Assembly (NCBI GenBank): GCA_000196815.1
Contig: FP929003.1
Location: forward strand, 930,001 to 994,000
Reading direction: 5' to 3'
From: Nitrospira defluvii
GTDB taxonomy: Bacteria > Nitrospirota > Nitrospiria > Nitrospirales > Nitrospiraceae
Length of the DNA: 64,000 bases
The notes below the pieces were generated by a model, which had not been told where the DNA came from, searched no databases, and was given only the letters and a program-made list of their open reading frames with translations. The position numbers and the translations under genes are program-made. This document shows, in pieces, positions 43,280 through 52,657 of this stretch. Numbering within the stretch: position 1 is the stretch's first letter; each line of letters opens with the position of its first letter.

Positions 43280-43714
43280 GCGCGCTGGGGGGACACGGGT
43301 GCTCGCCCGTTGAGCTTGCTCGACGGGAGGAAAGTCCGGACTCCAAGGGCAAGGACGCTGGATAACGTCCAGGCGGAGCGATCCGACACCAGCACCACAG
43401 AGAACAAACCGCCGATGGCCGGTACGGGAGACTTCGGTCGAGTGCGCCGGCTCAGGTAAGGGTGAAACGGTGGGGTAAGAGCCCACCGCGGTGATGGCGA
43501 CATCAACGGCACGGTAAGCGTCGTCCGGAGCAAGACCAAATAGGGGAACGCCTGTGGGCTCGCGAGAGCTCGGCAGAAAGGCCGGCCCGGCCGAGGTTCC
43601 CGGGTAGGTTGCTTGAGGCTCGAGGTAACTCGAGTCCCAGAGAAATGATCACCCCCGCGTGAGCGCAAGTTTCACGCGGGACAGAATCCGGCTTATAGGG
43701 TTTCTCCAACGCGC
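43280..43714 (+). ncRNA. rnpB: RNase P RNA (bacterial class A)
   Basis: Catalytic RNA that removes 5' leaders from pre-tRNAs. The core is clear: GAGGAAAGTCCGGACTCC near 43328, ACAGAGAACAAACCGCC, GGTAAGGGTGAAACGGTG, GGTAAGAGCCCACCGC and the 3' CCCAGAGAAATGATC plus GACAGAATCCGGCTTATAG. The ends pair as P1 (GCGCGCTGG at 43280 with CCAACGCGC ending at 43714), giving about 435 nucleotides. The 3' end is followed by six T residues, which could serve as terminator. The last 66 bases lie opposite the C-terminal codons of the glutaredoxin-like gene. Confidence 0.96.
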
Positions 43715-43954
43715 TTTTTTAATCGCTTCGCGCAGCTCTCCACCGGTCACCTTGCCGGAGAACATTTCCCGATCATTGATCAACAGCACCGGCACGCGGT
43801 CGCTGTATTGCTGGCGGAGGTGTTCGTTACTCTCGATATCGACTGTGATGAGCTCAAAGGGCAGGTCTTGTTGCACCTGCCTGGCCAGCCGAGTGACCAC
43901 CCGGCAAAGGTGGCATTCATGTCGGGACATGATCGTGACGCGTAGGGAATTCAT
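43649..43954 (-). CDS. Glutaredoxin-like thioredoxin-fold protein
   Basis: A 101-residue protein of the small glutaredoxin/DUF836 type. It has the redox motif CHLC (SRHECHLC) after the first strand, VDIESNEHLRQQYSDRVPVLLINDREMFSGKV with the cis-Pro, and an Arg/Lys-rich C-terminal extension. The ATG at 43954 is preferred to a TTG at 43969. The last 22 or so codons (ARWRNPISRILSRV...) are read from the strand opposite the 3' end of rnpB, so this tail may be constrained by the RNA more than by protein function. Partner and substrate are unknown. Confidence 0.8.
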   Translation of the reverse strand: MNSLRVTIMSRHECHLCRVVTRLARQVQQDLPFELITVDIESNEHLRQQYSDRVPVLLINDREMFSGKVTGGELREAIKKARWRNPISRILSRVKLALTRG

Positions 43955-44045
43955 AGGCAACGGGATCAATGGGTCGCGAAACTCCTATACCACGTGACAG
44001 GAGCCGACACCAGTCTGCTCGGCGAAGGGGCGCACTTCGACTCTC

Positions 44046-44075
44046 TTGACCTCGCTTGAGAGCTGGTGATACGAT
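44046..44075 (+). promoter_or_regulatory. Candidate promoter for the ilv operon
   Basis: TTGACC (44046-44051), an 18-base spacer and TACGAT (44070-44075). The start would be near 44082, giving a leader of about 120 bases with no T-box or leader peptide recognised. Confidence 0.55.
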
Positions 44076-44204
44076 CCGCCATCTTACCCGTTGATTTTCC
44101 AGAAAGATTGTATCAATCTGTGTCGCGTGTGTGACGCAGAGAGCCGAGTGTTTCGCAGTTAAGGCATCGTGTCCTTCGTCACGACGTGCGAAGGGGAGGG
44201 TGAT

Positions 44205-45983
44205 ATGAAGTTGACAGGGTCGGAAATCCTGATCGAATGCTTAAAAGCCGAAGGCGTGAAAACGATTTTCGCCTTGCCGGGCGGTGTGGTGTTGAAGATT
44301 TTCGACATGCTGCACCAGCAAAAAGATATCGAAGTTGTCTTGACCCGGCACGAGCAGGGCGCAGGGCATATGGCCGAAGGCTATGCCAAGGCTACCGGCA
44401 AGGCCGGTGTATGTTTGGTGACGTCCGGGCCTGGTATGACGAACGTGATCACGGCTCTGGCCGATGCCTACATGGATTCCGTGCCGTTGGTGTGTATCAG
44501 CGGACAGGTCTCGACGAGTTTAATCGGCAACGACGCCTTTCAGGAAGCCGACAACATCGGCCTCAGCCGGCCTTGCACAAAATATAATTTCCTCGTGAAA
44601 GATGTGAACGACCTGGCGACGACCATTAAGGAAGCGTTCTATATCGCCACGACCGGACGTCCCGGACCGGTCTTAGTGGATATTCCTAAAGACGTGTCCA
44701 TGGCCAAGACAGAGTTCACCTATCCCAGCTCAGTCTCAATCCGCGGATACAATCCGACCTACGAGGGGAATAAGTGGCAGATCAAGCAGGCGGCCGAAGC
44801 CATCATGAAGGCGAAGAAGCCGATTCTGTATGTCGGCGGGGGCGTCGTTTTCTCGCAGGCCTCCAAAGAATTGCTCGAATTGGCCGAGATGACCCAGATT
44901 CCGGTGGACATGACGCTGATGGGGCTTGGGGCGTTCCCTGGGGAGCATCCGCTGTCGTTGGGGATGCTGGGCATGCACGGCACCTATTCTGCCAATATGG
45001 CCGTCCATTACTCCGACTTGGTCATCGCGGTGGGGGCACGCTTCGATGATCGTGTGACGGGGAAGGTGTCGGAGTTCTGCCCCTTCGCGAAGGTCATTCA
45101 CATCGATATCGATCCGACCTCTATCCGGAAGAATATCCACGTCGATATTCCCATCGTGGGCGATTGTAAGGCCGTCTTGCGAGAGTTGAATCAAATTCTC
45201 CGGGCCACCGTGAACGGGAACCAAAAGGATCTGCGTAAGCCCTGGTGGGATCAACTCCGCGAATGGCAGCAGGCGCATCCGTTGGTCTACCAGCAGGAGC
45301 CCGATGGGGCGATTAAACCGCAACATGTCGTCAAGCGGTTGTATGAACTGACGAAGGATCGTGATCCGATCGTGGCGACCGATGTGGGCCAGCACCAGAT
45401 GTGGACGGCGCAGTACTTCAAGCTTGCCCGCCCGAATCGCTGGTTGACCTCAGGCGGTTTGGGCACCATGGGGTTCGGGTTTCCGGCTGCCATGGGGGCG
45501 CAGGCTGCGTTCAGAGATCGATTGGTGCTCTGTGTGGCCGGCGACGGCAGCATCCAGATGAATATGCAGGAAATGGCCGCCGCGGTGGTGTCGAAGCTGC
45601 CGGTGAAGATCATTATTCTGAACAATCGTTTCCACGGCATGGTTCGGCAGTGGCAGGATCTGTTTTACGAAGGGCGGTATGCGTCGAGCTACCTCGACAC
45701 CACGCCGGATTTCGTGAAGCTGGCCGAAGCCTATGGGGCGGTCGGCTTGCGCGCAAGCAAGGTGGAGGATCTGGATGCCGTGTTGAAGGAAGCCATCGCG
45801 ACCGACAAGCCCGTCGTCGTCGATGTGCCGACTTATCCCTATGAGAATTGTTATCCGATGATTCCGGCGGGCGGGTGCAATCACGAAATGATTCTCGAAG
45901 ATCCGCCTGAACTGAAGCGACGAATGGCCGGCGCGCCCAGCACCGGGTCCGACGAAGACAAGGACACGATCTTAACCGCCTAA
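44205..45983 (+). CDS. ilvB: Acetolactate synthase, large (catalytic) subunit
   Basis: Thiamine diphosphate and FAD enzyme that condenses two pyruvates (valine and leucine branch) or pyruvate with 2-oxobutyrate (isoleucine). The 592-residue product has ILIECLKAEGVKTIFALPGG, the catalytic Glu in TRHEQGAGHMAEGYA, GPGMTNVITALADAYMDS, and the TPP motif beginning VAGDGSIQMNMQE with NNRFHGMVRQWQ. The ATG at 44205 was chosen because AGGGGAGGG precedes it and the family start follows. The regulatory subunit gene begins 41 bases after the stop. Confidence 0.97.
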   Translation: MKLTGSEILIECLKAEGVKTIFALPGGVVLKIFDMLHQQKDIEVVLTRHEQGAGHMAEGYAKATGKAGVCLVTSGPGMTNVITALADAYMDSVPLVCISGQVSTSLIGNDAFQEADNIGLSRPCTKYNFLVKDVNDLATTIKEAFYIATTGRPGPVLVDIPKDVSMAKTEFTYPSSVSIRGYNPTYEGNKWQIKQAAEAIMKAKKPILYVGGGVVFSQASKELLELAEMTQIPVDMTLMGLGAFPGEHPLSLGMLGMHGTYSANMAVHYSDLVIAVGARFDDRVTGKVSEFCPFAKVIHIDIDPTSIRKNIHVDIPIVGDCKAVLRELNQILRATVNGNQKDLRKPWWDQLREWQQAHPLVYQQEPDGAIKPQHVVKRLYELTKDRDPIVATDVGQHQMWTAQYFKLARPNRWLTSGGLGTMGFGFPAAMGAQAAFRDRLVLCVAGDGSIQMNMQEMAAAVVSKLPVKIIILNNRFHGMVRQWQDLFYEGRYASSYLDTTPDFVKLAEAYGAVGLRASKVEDLDAVLKEAIATDKPVVVDVPTYPYENCYPMIPAGGCNHEMILEDPPELKRRMAGAPSTGSDEDKDTILTA

Positions 45984-46024
45984 ATCACGCTGTCAGCCGA
46001 CAGCTATCAGGATAGAGTTTTCCG

Positions 46025-46543
46025 ATGGAACATATCATTTCGGTCACGGTAGAAAATAAGTTCGGCGTGTTATCCCGCGTGGCCGGGCTGTTCAGCGGCC
46101 GCGGCTTCAATATCGAAAGTTTGTCGGTCGCCCCCACGCTGGATCCCTCGATGTCGCAGATGACCATCGTCACGTCGGGGGACGAACGGATCGTGGAACA
46201 AATCGTCAAGCAGCTGAATAAGCTGATCGATGTCATCAAGGTCGTGGATCTCAATGAGAGTGAATTCGTTTCGCGGGAGACGGCGCTCATCAAGGTTCAT
46301 ACCAAGGCAGAAGACCGAGCCGAGGCGCTTCGGATCGCGGACATTTTCAGAGCCAACGTGATTGACTCGACGCCCTCGACCTACACCATCGAGGTGACGG
46401 GTGATCCAAAGAAGCTTGAGGCCATCATCAATCTGCTCCAGCCGCTCGGCATCAAGGAACTGATTCGAACGGGGCGAGTGGCGATTGCGCGTGAGGCGAT
46501 CCGGCCGGCCCTCAGCCAACCCAAAAAGATCGCCCGGGAATAA
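46025..46543 (+). CDS. ilvH: Acetolactate synthase, small (regulatory) subunit
   Basis: Regulatory partner of IlvB that confers valine feedback control and raises activity. The 172-residue product has an N-terminal ACT domain (HIISVTVENKFGVLSRVAGLFSGRGFNIESLSV) and a C-terminal ACT-like domain (ADIFRANVIDSTPSTYTIEVTGDPKKLEAIINLLQPLGIKELIRTGRVAI). The length matches the long small-subunit form. It is encoded between the large subunit and ilvC. Confidence 0.96.
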   Translation: MEHIISVTVENKFGVLSRVAGLFSGRGFNIESLSVAPTLDPSMSQMTIVTSGDERIVEQIVKQLNKLIDVIKVVDLNESEFVSRETALIKVHTKAEDRAEALRIADIFRANVIDSTPSTYTIEVTGDPKKLEAIINLLQPLGIKELIRTGRVAIAREAIRPALSQPKKIARE

Positions 46544-46607
46544 TTCGCTCATCCCCTGTGTGCAACGGTCGTTTCCACCCATGTGCCCTATGAACCTTCA
46601 GGAGTGA

Positions 46608-47624
<1,017 letters not shown>

Positions 47625-47674
47625 CCCTGCGACCGGGCTCTTCGTGATAGCATAATAAAAGGGCCTGGAGGTAT

Positions 47675-48325
47675 ATGGCTGATCGAGCCGTCGGGATACC
47701 GATCGTAAAAGAAGGCCTGCCGTTTGTCGGTGGTCTTGTAGGCGCGACGCTGCTGTTCGGGGCGGCTGGTTGGATGATTCCTGCCGGGCTAGCGGGCGGG
47801 TTCACGCTGTTTACGGCGTGGTTCTTTCGAAACCCCAGTCGGACGATTCCACAGCAGCCGAATGTGGTGGTGTCGTCAGGGGATGGCAAAGTCATTGCCA
47901 TCGAGGAAGAGTTCGAGCCACGCTACCTGAAGGAAAAGAGCATTCGGGTGACGGTATTCTTGAACGTCTTCGATGTGCATGTGAACCGGATGCCCTGCAC
48001 TGGAACGGTTGAGGGTGTGAGTTACCAGCCCGGCCAGTTTCTGGTGGCGAGTAAGCCGGAGGCCACGCTCCGCAACGAGCAAAACGCGGTGATGTTGAAG
48101 ACGGAGTCAGGGGCGAAAGTGCTGTGCGTGCAGGTTGCCGGGCTGATTGCCCGCCGGATTGTTTGCTGGGTCGGGCAGGGTGATCGTGTACAGCGGGGGG
48201 AGCGGTTTGGACTGATTCGATTTGGGTCGCGGATGGATACGTTTCTTCCGCTGGGGTCCAAGATTTGTGTCTCCTTGGGCGACCGCGTCAAGGGAGGCGA
48301 AACCATCGTGGGGGAACTCCGATGA
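47675..48325 (+). CDS. psd: Phosphatidylserine decarboxylase proenzyme
   Basis: Pyruvoyl enzyme that makes phosphatidylethanolamine at the inner membrane. The 216-residue product is the short archaeal/Gram-positive-like type. It has N-terminal hydrophobic segments, AWFFRNPSRTIP, VFLNVFDVHVNRMPCTGTV, ASKPEATLRNEQNAV, and the cleavage motif in RFGSRMDTFLP, where the Ser after Gly becomes the pyruvoyl group. It overlaps the pssA start by four bases, so the two steps of the pathway are coded together. Confidence 0.95.
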   Translation: MADRAVGIPIVKEGLPFVGGLVGATLLFGAAGWMIPAGLAGGFTLFTAWFFRNPSRTIPQQPNVVVSSGDGKVIAIEEEFEPRYLKEKSIRVTVFLNVFDVHVNRMPCTGTVEGVSYQPGQFLVASKPEATLRNEQNAVMLKTESGAKVLCVQVAGLIARRIVCWVGQGDRVQRGERFGLIRFGSRMDTFLPLGSKICVSLGDRVKGGETIVGELR

Positions 48326-49122
48326 AATCACCGGCCATGCGAGCTCCGTTTGCGAAGGGCAATCGAAAGCGACAGGCGATGTACCTGATCCCGAACCTCT
48401 GCACGACCGGAAATCTGTTCTGCGGCGTGTTTGCGATCCTGTCGGTCTTTAACGGTCAGCATCTGGTGGCCGCGATCGCTATCCTGGTCGGCATGATTTT
48501 CGACATGCTGGACGGAAAATTGGCCCGGTTGACGAATAGTACCGGTCAGTTCGGCATCGAGTATGATTCTCTTTCCGATGTGGTGTCGTTCGGGGTCGCG
48601 CCCGGTGTCTTGATTTATTCATACGCGTTGAGTGGGCAGGGGATGTTCGGAGTTGCCGTGATGTTTGCCTATGTGGCCATGGGAGCTGTTCGGTTGGCAA
48701 GGTTCAATGCGACCGTGAGCAGCTCCGACAGTAAATACTTCACGGGTCTGGCTATCCCCGCTGCTGCCGGTGTCATCGCGTCGTTGGTGATTTTTGATCT
48801 CCACATCACCCAGATGGGCTCGGAAGTGAAGCCGTTGTTGATTCTGGTGATCACGTTCGCGCTGGCGTTCTTGATGGTCAGCACGATCAAGTATCGCAGT
48901 TTCAAGGACATGAAGTTCCGGCGTGGGGATCATTTCACCTATCTCGTGTGGGGAATTCTCGCCTTGATGTTGATTGTCGCCTGGCCGCAGGCGATGTTGT
49001 TCGTGACGTTCACCGGGTACGCCGCGTCGGGTCCTTTGGCGCGTCTCTGGACGATGGTTTCTAAGGGGGCAGGGAAGCCGGTGACCAAGACGGACGCACC
49101 GGTACTCGATTCGAGAGAATAA
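48322..49122 (+). CDS. pssA: CDP-diacylglycerol-serine O-phosphatidyltransferase
   Basis: Integral membrane enzyme that forms phosphatidylserine, the substrate of psd. The 266-residue product has the CDP-alcohol phosphotransferase motif DMLDGKLARL followed by GIEYDSLSDVVSFGVAPG. It also has six to eight hydrophobic helices and the opening YLIPNLCTTGNLFCGVFAI, typical of the type II PssA subclass. The ATG at 48322 lies in the psd stop (ATGA). The gene ends just before the T-box leader of leuA. Confidence 0.95.
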   Translation: MKSPAMRAPFAKGNRKRQAMYLIPNLCTTGNLFCGVFAILSVFNGQHLVAAIAILVGMIFDMLDGKLARLTNSTGQFGIEYDSLSDVVSFGVAPGVLIYSYALSGQGMFGVAVMFAYVAMGAVRLARFNATVSSSDSKYFTGLAIPAAAGVIASLVIFDLHITQMGSEVKPLLILVITFALAFLMVSTIKYRSFKDMKFRRGDHFTYLVWGILALMLIVAWPQAMLFVTFTGYAASGPLARLWTMVSKGAGKPVTKTDAPVLDSRE

Positions 49123-49395
49123 CAACAGCGACGACGAGGAGTAGTAGGCAGCGTTGGCCGAACTGAGAGAGCTGGTGGATGGTGCGAACCAGCCGGTGAT
49201 CTGCCGAACTCGCCTCTGAGCTGGACTTGTGAAACCCTTCGGGGTGGTAATAGGTCCCGGATGATCCGCGTAACGGATTGAATGAAGGGCGGTTGGATGA
49301 AGGACATGCTTCATCCGTCGCTGAATCAGGGTGGTACCACGAAGCTCGCAAGGCCTTCGTCCCTGTCCCGGGGCGGAGGCTTTTCTATTTTCAGG
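49123..49395 (+). promoter_or_regulatory. Leucine T-box riboswitch with transcription attenuator, upstream of leuA
   Basis: Stem I features are readable: an AGTAGTAGGCAG segment, and AGAGAGCTGGTGGATGGTGCG with AACCAGC, the conserved distal stem-loop. The likely specifier is CTC (Leu) at 49209-49211, within GAACTCGCC before TCTGAGC. The T-box core AGGGTGGTACCACG (49328-49341) holds TGGT, complementary to an ACCA tRNA end. An 11-bp terminator stem (49353-49363 with 49370-49380) follows, with TTTTCTATTTT. Uncharged tRNA-Leu should favour the antiterminator and switch on leuA. The exact 5' end is uncertain. Confidence 0.9.
49353..49391 (+). terminator. Attenuator terminator of the leuA T-box
   Basis: An 11-bp GC-rich stem with two G:T wobbles, a six-base loop and T-run TTTTCTATTTT. 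It lies directly after the T-box core, so the two structures are mutually exclusive. Confidence 0.82.
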
Positions 49396-49549
49396 ATGCT
49401 GAAACAGGTGTCCGGCGGCGTTCTCGGCGAGGAATCGTCCTCGACGTATCTCAGAGGGTACGCCTCCGGTGCTTCCTTCGCCTGCGGCCTCGCCGGCCGA
49501 CCTGTTTGAGCATTCTGTGCAGTGTTGTTAACCGAAGGAGAGGTGCGCC

Positions 49550-51097
49550 ATGACTAGGATGATCAGAATATTCGACACGACGTTGCGGGATGGTGAGCAA
49601 TCGCCGGGGGCGAGCATGAACGTCGAAGAGAAACTTATGATTGCCAAGCAGCTGGCGCGCCTCGGCGTGGATATCATCGAAGCCGGCTTCGCCTATAGTT
49701 CGCCCGGTGATTTCGAAGCAGTCCGGCGGATCGCCTTGGAAGTTGAAGGCCCAGTGGTATGCAGTCTGGCGCGGGCCAGGCCGGAAGACATCACGAGGGC
49801 GTCGGAAGCGTTGAAGGGCGCGCCACGGGTGCGGATTCATACGTTTCTCTCAACGTCGGACATCCACCTCAAGCACCAGTTCCGGATGACCCGAGAAGAA
49901 GCGAAGAAGCGCGCCGTGGAGATGGTGCAGTTGGCGCGCACCTATGTGGATGACGTCGAATTTTCACCCATGGATGCGAGCCGATCGGATCCGGCGTATC
50001 TGTGCGAAGTGATCGAGGCGGTGATCGCGGCCGGGGCGGGAACGATCAACATTCCCGACACGGTGGGCTATGCCGTTCCCCAGGAGTTCGGTGGCCTGAT
50101 CAAGCGGATTAAAGACAGCGTCCCGAATAGCGGGCAAGCCGTCATTTCCGTCCATTGCCACAACGATTTGGGGTTGGCGGTCGCCAACAGTCTGGCGGCG
50201 GTGGTGGCAGGGGCCGGGCAGGTGGAGTGCACGATCAACGGGATCGGTGAGCGGGCCGGCAACACCTCGCTGGAGGAGATCGTCATGGGGCTCCGCACGC
50301 GCAGAGACTGGTACGGGGCCGATACCAAAGTCGTGACGGAGGAGTTATCCAAGACCAGTCGCCTGGTGAGCAAGATTACCGGTATGGTCATTCAACCGAA
50401 CAAGGCTATTGTCGGGGCGAATGCGTTCGCCCATACGTCGGGCATCCATCAGGATGGGTTACTGAAAGATAAGACGACGTACGAGATCATGCGGCCAGAA
50501 TCCGTCGGTCTTGAGCAGGTCAAGCTGGTCATGGGGAAGTTGTCCGGGCGCCATGCCTTTCGTCAGCGGCTGGAGGAGTTGGGCTACAAGTTGACCGAAG
50601 ACGAAACGAATCATGCGTTCGAACGATTCAAGCGCTTGGCGGATCAAAAGAAAGAGATTTACGAGGAAGACCTCGAAGTCATCGTGTCCGAAGAAGTCGC
50701 GAAAATGTCCGAACGGGTGGTCTTGAAATCCTTTCAGGTCGAAAGCGGAACCAACAAGACTCCGAAGGCAACGGTGGAATTGGAAATCGACGGGAAGCTG
50801 GTCTCGCATAGCGGAACGGGCGACGGCCCGGTAGATGCGGTCTATCGGACCATTGCCGCCATGACCCAAACGAAGAGCAAGTTACTGATGTTCGGGGTCA
50901 ATGCCATCACCGGCGGAACCGATGCGCAAGGGGAAGTGTCTGTGCGGCTCGAAGAAGATGGCCGAACCGTTTCAGGCCATGGCGCCGATACCGACATCAT
51001 CACGGCGGCTGCACGGGCCTATCTGAACGCGCTCAATAAATTGGCGTACTTCGCTGCAAAGCAAGCGGAAGGGATTCAGAAGGTCAGCTTGATTTGA
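49550..51097 (+). CDS. leuA: 2-isopropylmalate synthase
   Basis: First committed enzyme of leucine synthesis, condensing acetyl-CoA with 2-oxoisovalerate. The 515-residue product has [37 protein letters not shown] with the metal-binding His pair, [17 protein letters not shown] and [13 protein letters not shown]. The C-terminal regulatory domain (about 390-510) should bind leucine for feedback inhibition. A GGAGAGG site precedes the ATG. Expression is under the T-box leader upstream, so there is control at both RNA and enzyme level. Confidence 0.97.
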
Positions 51098-51580: not shown

Positions 51581-52657
51581 GTGAATGCGAAAATCGCAGT
51601 CCTGGCCGGTGATGGAGTCGGCCGTGAAATTGTCCCGGAAGCGGTGAAGGTGTTGAAGGTCGTTGCAGAACGCCACGGGCATACATTTGAATTTATCCCG
51701 GGCAATGTCGGGGGCCATGCGATCGATAAAGTCGGGGTGCCGCTTCCGGCTGAGACGCTCGCTATCGCTAAGCACAGCGATGCCGTGCTGCTCGGCGCCG
51801 TCGGTGGCCCCAAATGGGAAGGTTTGGAATATAGTCTTCGCCCCGAGCGGGCGCTGCTGGGACTGCGGGAGCAACTCGGGCTCTATGCGAACCTGCGACC
51901 GGCCAAGCTCTATCCCATGCTGGCCGATGCGTCTACCTTACGACGCGATGTGATCGAAGGCATCGATATGCTGGTGATCCGGGAGCTGACCGGAGGCATT
52001 TATTTCGGCAAACCGAAGGGCATCGAGCCATTGCCCGGCGGCGGAGAGCGTGGCTTCAATACCGAAGTCTACACGACCGAAGAAATTCGTCGCATTGCCG
52101 TGGTGGCGTTCGACGCGGCCCGCAAGCGCCGCAAAAAGGTCACGTCTGTGGATAAGGCCAATGTGTTGGAGTCCTCGGAATTGTGGCGGCGGGTGGTTAC
52201 GGACGTCCATAGAGGGTATCCCGATGTGGCGTTGAGTCACATCTATGTCGACAATTGCGCGATGCAGCTGGTGCGTAATCCGCGGCAGTTCGATGTGTTG
52301 CTGTGTAACAACATCTTCGGCGATATTCTCAGCGACGAAGCCGCGATGCTGACCGGGTCGATCGGCATGTTGCCGTCCGCCAGTGTCGGCGCCAAGGTGG
52401 GGTTGTTCGAGCCGATCCACGGCAGTGCGCCGGATATTGCCGGCAAAAACATCGCCAATCCGATTGCAACGATCGCTTCTGCCGCGATGATGTTGTCCTA
52501 TGCGTTTCAGCTCGACAAAGAAGCGGCGGCGATCGAGCAGGCCATCGTCAAGACGCTCGAACTCGGGTTCCGCACCAAGGATATCCATGCCGAAGGCATG
52601 CAGCTGGTCGGCACCGTGGAGATGGGCGATGCGATTGTGCGCAACCTTCCCTCGTAA
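51581..52657 (+). CDS. leuB: 3-isopropylmalate dehydrogenase
   Basis: NAD-dependent oxidative decarboxylase of leucine synthesis. The 358-residue product has [71 protein letters not shown] (the LeuB-specific loop), [36 protein letters not shown] with metal-binding Asp residues, and [19 protein letters not shown]. The GTG at 51581 follows GAGGAG. The leuC and leuD genes are not in this cluster. The NHL propeller gene starts 3 bases after its stop. Confidence 0.97.

Follow-up and report, generated by a model that had tools for sequence, protein, structure and literature searches.

A leucine T-box between pssA and leuA in Nitrospira, and changes at the same junction in related bacteria

INTRODUCTION

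T-box leaders with the same target gene as the one studied here stand in front of leuA in Geobacter and Pelobacter, the two Proteobacteria that join the Firmicutes, Actinobacteria, Chloroflexi and Deinococcus/Thermus in the survey of Wels et al. (2008, PMC2494555), where the distribution as tabulated has no Nitrospirae row. A second account limits T-boxes to four groups plus Geobacter (PMC3766115), and the word 'nitrospir' does not occur in the available text of the TBDB paper (PMC7778990). A paper that pairs 'T-box riboswitch' with 'Nitrospira' concerns, in its available text, RNase P (PMC10941002). In the literature that we searched we found neither T-boxes in Nitrospira nor the leader variants described below.

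In this work, we have analysed a stretch of 64,000 nucleotides (the window) in which a first-pass annotation had proposed a leucine T-box attenuator at 49123–49395, in front of leuA and in a Nitrospirota-like genome, to be read either as an extension of the known range or as a transfer. The LeuA encoded in the window is 99% identical to that of a Nitrospiraceae contig and 97% identical to that of a Nitrospira contig (L002 and L003), both of the host group proposed, and judged from this protein the host is a Nitrospira. The locus places tRNA-sensing control in nitrifying Nitrospira. Its interest lies in its place inside a probable operon, and in what has happened at the same junction in the relatives.

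RESULTS

Identity and anatomy of the T-box

The Rfam T-box model, RF00230, matches the plus strand of the window end to end at 49122–49367 (model positions 1–219, all positions), scoring 97.3 bits where the gathering score is 93 (E 3.7e-20; cmscan, 64-kb window), an assignment that alignment and covariation also support. In the whole genome (one contig, 4,317,083 bases) an RF00230 search gave a single T-box. The limits first proposed are correct within a few bases, and the parts that had been named (Stem I, a CTC specifier, the core AGGGTGGTACCACG and a terminator with T-run) can all be read in the sequence.

All elements lie on the plus strand. Stem I, with its specifier loop and an AGAGA bulge (49166–49170), extends over 49128–49221, its helices being followed from I-base to I-top by per-helix pair counts; the AGAGA and GATGGTG motifs of the AG bulge/distal loop region are present and largely conserved among the aligned leaders. 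The specifier loop reads GAA-CTC-G, and its leucine codon CTC (49209–49211), assigned from the sequence and the aligned leaders, has tRNA-Leu(GAG) as its predicted partner. The base 3' of the specifier is G in the window and in most relatives, a position described as usually A (PMC5794164). Stem II and the Stem IIA/B region follow at 49223–49278 (helices 6 and 7, with 96.7% and 77.6% of cells paired; IIA/B was counted as one helix, the latter), then the variable Stem III hairpin at 49295–49316 (67.0% of cells paired, both-side changes in 8 of 8 pairs), IIA/B and Stem III being the weak parts of the structure. The antiterminator, AGGGTGGTACCACG...TTCGTCCCT at 49328–49364, consists of the helices AGGG/CCCT and ACGAAG/CTTCGT (helices 9 and 10, 100% and 98.3% paired) around the bulge TGGTACC, with the T-box TGGT at 49332–49335.

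An intrinsic terminator, seen by folding and by a terminator scan, occupies 49350–49391 and excludes the antiterminator, whose 3' strand is also part of the terminator stem (49350–49383, 14 pairs and a loop of 6, with the T-run TTTTCTATTTTC overlapping the stem end). The terminator form, GGCCTTCGTCCC...GGAGGC with the T-run, folds at -22.3 kcal/mol (z -4.15 against shuffles), whereas the antiterminator alone reaches -10.1 kcal/mol and does no better than shuffles (z -0.30). Facing so stable a terminator, the weak lone antiterminator implies that the switch needs a stabiliser from outside, as other T-boxes do. Stem I alone (the first 114 bases) also folds no better than its shuffles (z -0.40). 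A translational (class II) T-box was ruled out, since a terminator is present, its T-run ending some 160 bases upstream of where leuA starts.

The genome has 44 tRNA matches, all of them read by ARAGORN. Five are tRNA-Leu, with the anticodons TAA, TAG, CAA, GAG and CAG in one copy each across the whole genome. The single tRNA-Leu(GAG), at C1:212256–212339 on the minus strand, ends in ...TTCGGC-A-CCA, so that its ACCA end is able to pair with the UGGU bulge.

Distribution, conservation and covariation

Among 395 genomes of the phylum Nitrospirota, the search matched 125 at E <= 0.01, spread over 24 of 169 genera; 58 of them score above the Rfam cut-off and 67 below it. One T-box is split across two contig ends (G316), giving 126 matches. 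The gene leuA follows in 122 of these, at a distance of 34 to 1161 bases, and the other four have 5–236 bases of sequence behind the match. In the window's family (f1) the T-box stands in the leuA leader of 108 of 110 genomes among those listed, the total of 110 being taken from a listing assumed to be ordered by kinship. In one of the two genomes without a match leuA starts at a contig end (G388), and in the other, which is 89% complete, LeuA was not found (G336); the T-box is absent from both because the leader is missing from the assemblies. A further 6 genomes match in families f6/f9, and 11 in f15/f16/f19. The same leader thus precedes leuA in related genomes, and the idea of an extension holds in that the T-box, not peculiar to one genome, is supported by these comparisons as a fixed trait of f1.

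All 125 genomes share the leucine specificity read from the window: 122 have CTC as specifier (120 leaders by script and two f6 leaders by eye; one fragment has no Stem I) and 3 have CTG, also leucine (G163, G236 and G362; loci L097, L102 and L218). That tRNA-Leu(GAG) had been lost was ruled out as the reason for CTG, as all three genomes have both GAG and CAG tRNAs; the reading covered the 28 longest matches out of 124 for tRNA. A terminator stem that re-uses the antiterminator 3' strand and is followed by a T-run occurs in 120 of the 124 leaders for which 60 bases or more of downstream sequence are available, and in 51 of 2480 shuffled tails. By eye, the four misses are also terminator-like, their arm being longer or less well matched.

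For covariation, 30 of the 126 leaders were picked for variety from f1, f6, f9, f15 and f19 (f16 is absent), and the structure tested combined the Rfam anatomy with the sequence of the window. Paired cells amount to 89.7%, against 77.2% in shuffles and 32.8–49.6% in slid versions of the structure; both sides change in 34 of 49 pairs; and the covariation score is 0.390, against 0.166 for shuffles and 0.048–0.149 for slid structures. These data bear on whether the leader could be a relic, a sequence kept by descent while the switch itself is dead. The score close to the Rfam cut-off and the repeats that have entered the leader region would suit a relic; the compensatory changes in those 34 of 49 pairs, the invariant core, the exclusive terminator in 120 of 124 leaders and a sole specifier change that is to a synonymous leucine codon all speak for a working switch, and a dead one seems to us extremely improbable.

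Position of the T-box relative to the pssA and leuA genes

The T-box adjoins the upstream gene. The gene pssA, coding for CDP-diacylglycerol-serine O-phosphatidyltransferase (48319–49122, plus strand, start inferred; TIGR00473, 127 bits, cut-off 107), has its TAA stop codon at 49120–49122, ending on the first base of the T-box. Downstream, as first annotated, lies leuA for 2-isopropylmalate synthase (49550–51097, plus strand; TIGR00973, leuA_bact, 728.9 bits; PRK00915, 797.2 bits). The next leucine gene, leuB for 3-isopropylmalate dehydrogenase (51581–52657, plus strand; TIGR00169, 514.4 bits), is probably controlled together with leuA. On the same strand the upstream order is RNase P RNA, ilvB, ilvN, ilvC, psd, pssA, with the RNase P RNA gene (43287–43711, plus strand; RF00010, 279.7 bits) immediately preceding the ilvB operon, and the downstream order is leuA, an unnamed 142-aa ORF, leuB, a gene for an NHL-repeat-like protein, asd.

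Measured from the T-box start (the Stem I anchor), the pssA stop lies at +1 in 18 and at +4 in 3 of the 21 genus genomes. Of the other 88 f1 loci, 78 have a readable pssA, with the stop within -86 to +5 in each; of the remaining 10, nine, with a long Stem I insert, have too little upstream sequence and one is a fragment. Because the T-box begins at the pssA stop codon, we favour, with some confidence, the reading in which it acts as an operon-internal switch in an ilvB-ilvN-ilvC-psd-pssA-leuA transcript. In a pattern scan, the sole plus-strand sigma-70-like site of 43700–49125 is at 44046–44075, before ilvB. Terminator-like patterns that the scan placed within the upstream genes may limit how much read-through arrives at the T-box.

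The main rival to an operon-internal switch is that the same T-box is transcribed from its own, unrecognised promoter in the pssA 3' end, as an ordinary 5' leader. Promoters within genes are common, and part of f1 would have room for one, with the pssA stop at -27 to -57. The pattern scan, which covered sites of the sigma-70 type, found none in 48900–49600, and in all 21 genus genomes the leader shares bases with the pssA stop codon. Third-position conservation in pssA, computed on the 18 of 21 genus genomes with the stop at +1, can be read both ways: it is 0.74 in the last 8 codons, slightly higher than in the four blocks before (0.63–0.69), but it does not exceed that of the codons further upstream (0.74–0.81). 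We consider a promoter inside pssA possible, although rather unlikely. Under the operon-internal arrangement, the T-box would uncouple the leucine branch from the branched-chain and phospholipid genes that share the operon.

A dispersed repeat behind the terminator and inside Stem I

Between the terminator and leuA, outside the T-box, lies a copy of a dispersed palindromic repeat (49392–49518, plus strand) with 44 matches in the genome including itself. It folds into a hairpin of -65.1 kcal/mol (z -4.51). The copy is an imperfect palindrome of about 125 bp with ends like CAGGATGCTGAAAA...TTTTGAGCATCCTG, and the other matches are 69–88% identical over the matched parts; by its sequence it looks like a REP/MITE-type element. 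A BLAST search with the window copy found the family between the terminator and leuA in many relatives too. When 20 of the 44 copies were read by eye, many stood directly after stop codons, and the idea that the repeat targets sites behind terminators was dropped on this reading. At one locus (L196, genome G195) the 1161 bases between T-box and leuA hold a coding-looking stretch, by eye with BNR-like repeats and partly a run of N, flanked on both sides by repeat pieces.

In sister species, copies of this repeat family also lie within Stem I. Its left arm, from the specifier loop to the AG bulge, measures 15–21 nt in 87 of 126 leaders, including that of the window, 36–38 nt in 20, 77–95 nt in 4 and 143–146 nt in 9; the exceptions are one f6 leader whose 117 nt are of a different sequence, four f9 leaders without the distal half and one fragment. 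The inserts of 143–146 nt (L222, L223, L232, L236, L237, L238, L239, L242, L244) are copies of a dispersed palindromic repeat, for which searches of four whole genomes gave 43, 29, 17 and 40 matches, the best one being the T-box copy itself in G202 and G274. The insert folds as a long hairpin of its own beside an intact terminal stem. In four loci it is partly deleted (L240, L243, L248, L251), and the 36–38 nt forms, in which the outer arms persist (for example CAGAATG...CATTCTG), look like copies that have been eroded, a course of events deduced from comparing the sequences. Across the sister species the series is graded, from the full insert to a short hairpin.

Of six leaders scanned, five fall below the Rfam cut-off, namely three with full inserts (L239, L237, L222), one of f9 (L215) and one remnant form (L234), and another remnant form exceeds it (L168, 95.5 bits). 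Since the inserts push the T-box under the cut-off, annotation would miss it. The inserts amount to a natural experiment on the quantity of additional RNA tolerated at the end that binds the tRNA elbow. On the combination of repeats and riboswitches, the literature searched gave no title describing a repeat within a T-box, which is a weak negative. The four f9 loci (L215, L226, L235, L241) have leuA T-boxes without the elbow-binding part: Stem I ends just above the specifier loop in an apex of 12–17 nt, and the 3' end is of the terminator type.

A candidate peptide attenuator in the sister family

In the sister family f2, an RF00230 search found a T-box in none of the 18 genomes listed, and the best score there with R1, a model built in this analysis, is 20.9 bits, in G135 and away from the leuA locus. 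LeuA was recovered in 17 of the 18 genomes. Directly behind pssA, 9 of the 17 LeuA loci have an ORF of 28–35 codons upstream of leuA (L280, L286, L287, L289, L290, L291, L292, L295, L296), for example MDQWQGKGRAPLLLGDATLTLASLLKIAVTP. It contains 4–7 leucine codons in seven of the nine, 10 in L286 and 2 in L296, and a strong terminator follows its stop at exactly 20 bases in 6 loci and at 28–29 bases in 3. The nine ORFs were read via start motifs picked by eye, and the leader-peptide score missed some conserved ones. The best leucine score of the 17 f2 leaders is matched by 2–6 of 200 shuffles in 6 leaders, by 20–33 in 3 and by at least 94 in 8, and in L290 it comes from an ORF other than the one read. 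The case for a peptide therefore rests as much on the conservation of position and spacing as on leucine content. An alternative hairpin can form in L280 from the sequence preceding the terminator (-18.1 kcal/mol, against -28.1 for the terminator form). We regard the ORF and its terminator, from these sequence features, as a candidate ribosome-mediated leucine attenuator. In two of the loci (L291, L287) a small inserted palindrome, CAGGACnGGCACAGGGGCCTGTCCCTACACCA, alters the C-terminal half of the ORF.

The terminators of L285, L278 and L294 begin with AGCCTTCGTCCC, a strand typical of T-box leaders, and that of L288 differs from it by one change; at all four loci this arm stands about 50 bases before leuA, with no T-box there. 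From this short, 12-base match we infer that in f2 the T-box may have been lost and partly replaced while its terminator was kept.

Origin of the T-box

Run on 80 named LeuA loci, R1 found 16 leuA T-boxes, 12 of Nitrospira type and 4 of Geobacter type (L065, L068, L078, L079; 131–172 bits); a seventeenth match, in Halanaerobacter (L067), does not adjoin leuA, and three loci with under 210 bases before leuA (L036, L062, L081) could not be judged. The first-pass annotation offered a transfer as one reading, and a recent arrival of the T-box together with leuA, from Geobacter-type bacteria or from Firmicutes, would account for the close T-boxes at those 4 of 80 loci, for pssA lying upstream in two of the four and for the patchy occurrence in the phylum (24 of 169 genera). 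The LeuA tree (80 rows; 29 distant ones and some of those of f1 were left out) places the LeuA of T-box-bearing Nitrospirota with other Nitrospirota and the Geobacter-type rows in a separate clade with support of 100/100, and does not support a recent import from Geobacter-type bacteria; the T-box is, besides, uniformly present within f1. As a recent event, then, transfer is very improbable.

On the same tree the T-box-bearing Nitrospirota rows are scattered among T-box-free Nitrospirota rows. The T-box label needs 9 changes, at least 6 of them forced by starred branches, in a labelling that counts L036 as 'none' with 165 bases before leuA. Both an old presence with several losses and several gains would fit these LeuA sequences, and the RNA alone may have been transferred long ago.

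DISCUSSION

Our results support a leucine T-box through the Rfam match, covariation, the leucine specifiers, the presence of tRNA-Leu(GAG), the exclusive terminator and conservation. We are highly confident that the leader is a class I (transcriptional) T-box acting on leuA, with tRNA-Leu(GAG) as the molecule sensed, and its mechanism belongs to a known class. When leucine is sufficient, tRNA-Leu would be charged, the terminator at 49350–49391 would form and the polymerase would stop before leuA. When leucine is short, uncharged tRNA-Leu would bind, its anticodon GAG pairing with CUC in the specifier loop and its ACCA end with the UGGU bulge; the bound tRNA would hold the antiterminator, and leuA would be transcribed. 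Binding of the tRNA, the direction of the response and read-through of the operon are those expected from the predicted structure and gene order.

What might have happened at this junction in the wider group? The pssA-leuA junction, with a T-box in f1, a candidate peptide attenuator in part of f2 and a shared terminator sequence, is a locus at which riboswitch evolution can be followed. In the history that we propose, to which we give an even chance, the operon-internal leucine T-box would be ancestral at the pssA-leuA junction in the host's order; one sublineage would have acquired a self-folding dispersed repeat in Stem I, next to the end that binds the elbow, kept the switch and whittled the repeat down to a hairpin; and f2 would have lost tRNA sensing and evolved a leucine leader-peptide attenuator on the T-box's own terminator. 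If this were true, two unrelated leucine sensors would have used one inherited terminator at the same junction. A distant parallel to a mobile element in a leuA leader is the LEU element before actinobacterial leuA, described in its source as proposed to derive from a transposase gene (PMC1262725). A second parallel is found in Staphylococcus aureus, where the Leu-rich attenuator peptide reported for ilv-leu (PMC5794164) represents a comparable exchange of T-box and peptide and resembles part of f2; this feature does not occur in the window, and some f2 terminators, unlike the S. aureus attenuator, still carry the T-box strand AGCCTTCGTCCC.

Compared with described T-boxes, the leader in the window has the parts of class I (RF00230): Stem I with its specifier, Stem II, Stem III, a UGGN antiterminator and a terminator. 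It shares leucine specificity with the Bacillus subtilis ilv-leu T-box as described in PMC5794164, and differs from it, and from class I in general, in its Nitrospirota host, in starting at a stop codon inside a probable operon, in controlling the leuA side only and in having G, not A, after the specifier. With the T-boxes listed for Geobacter sulfurreducens and Pelobacter carbinolicus (PMC2494555) it has the target gene in common. The Geobacter-type loci among our named LeuA loci share the CTC specifier (RF00230 scores of 125.1 bits in L068 and 117.4 bits in L078), but their LeuA forms a separate clade, and of the four loci two have a pssA match that stops some 610 bases short of leuA, the other two having none within 1500 bases of it. 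The leader described here follows the textbook form of a leucine T-box, in a phylum that is under-described.
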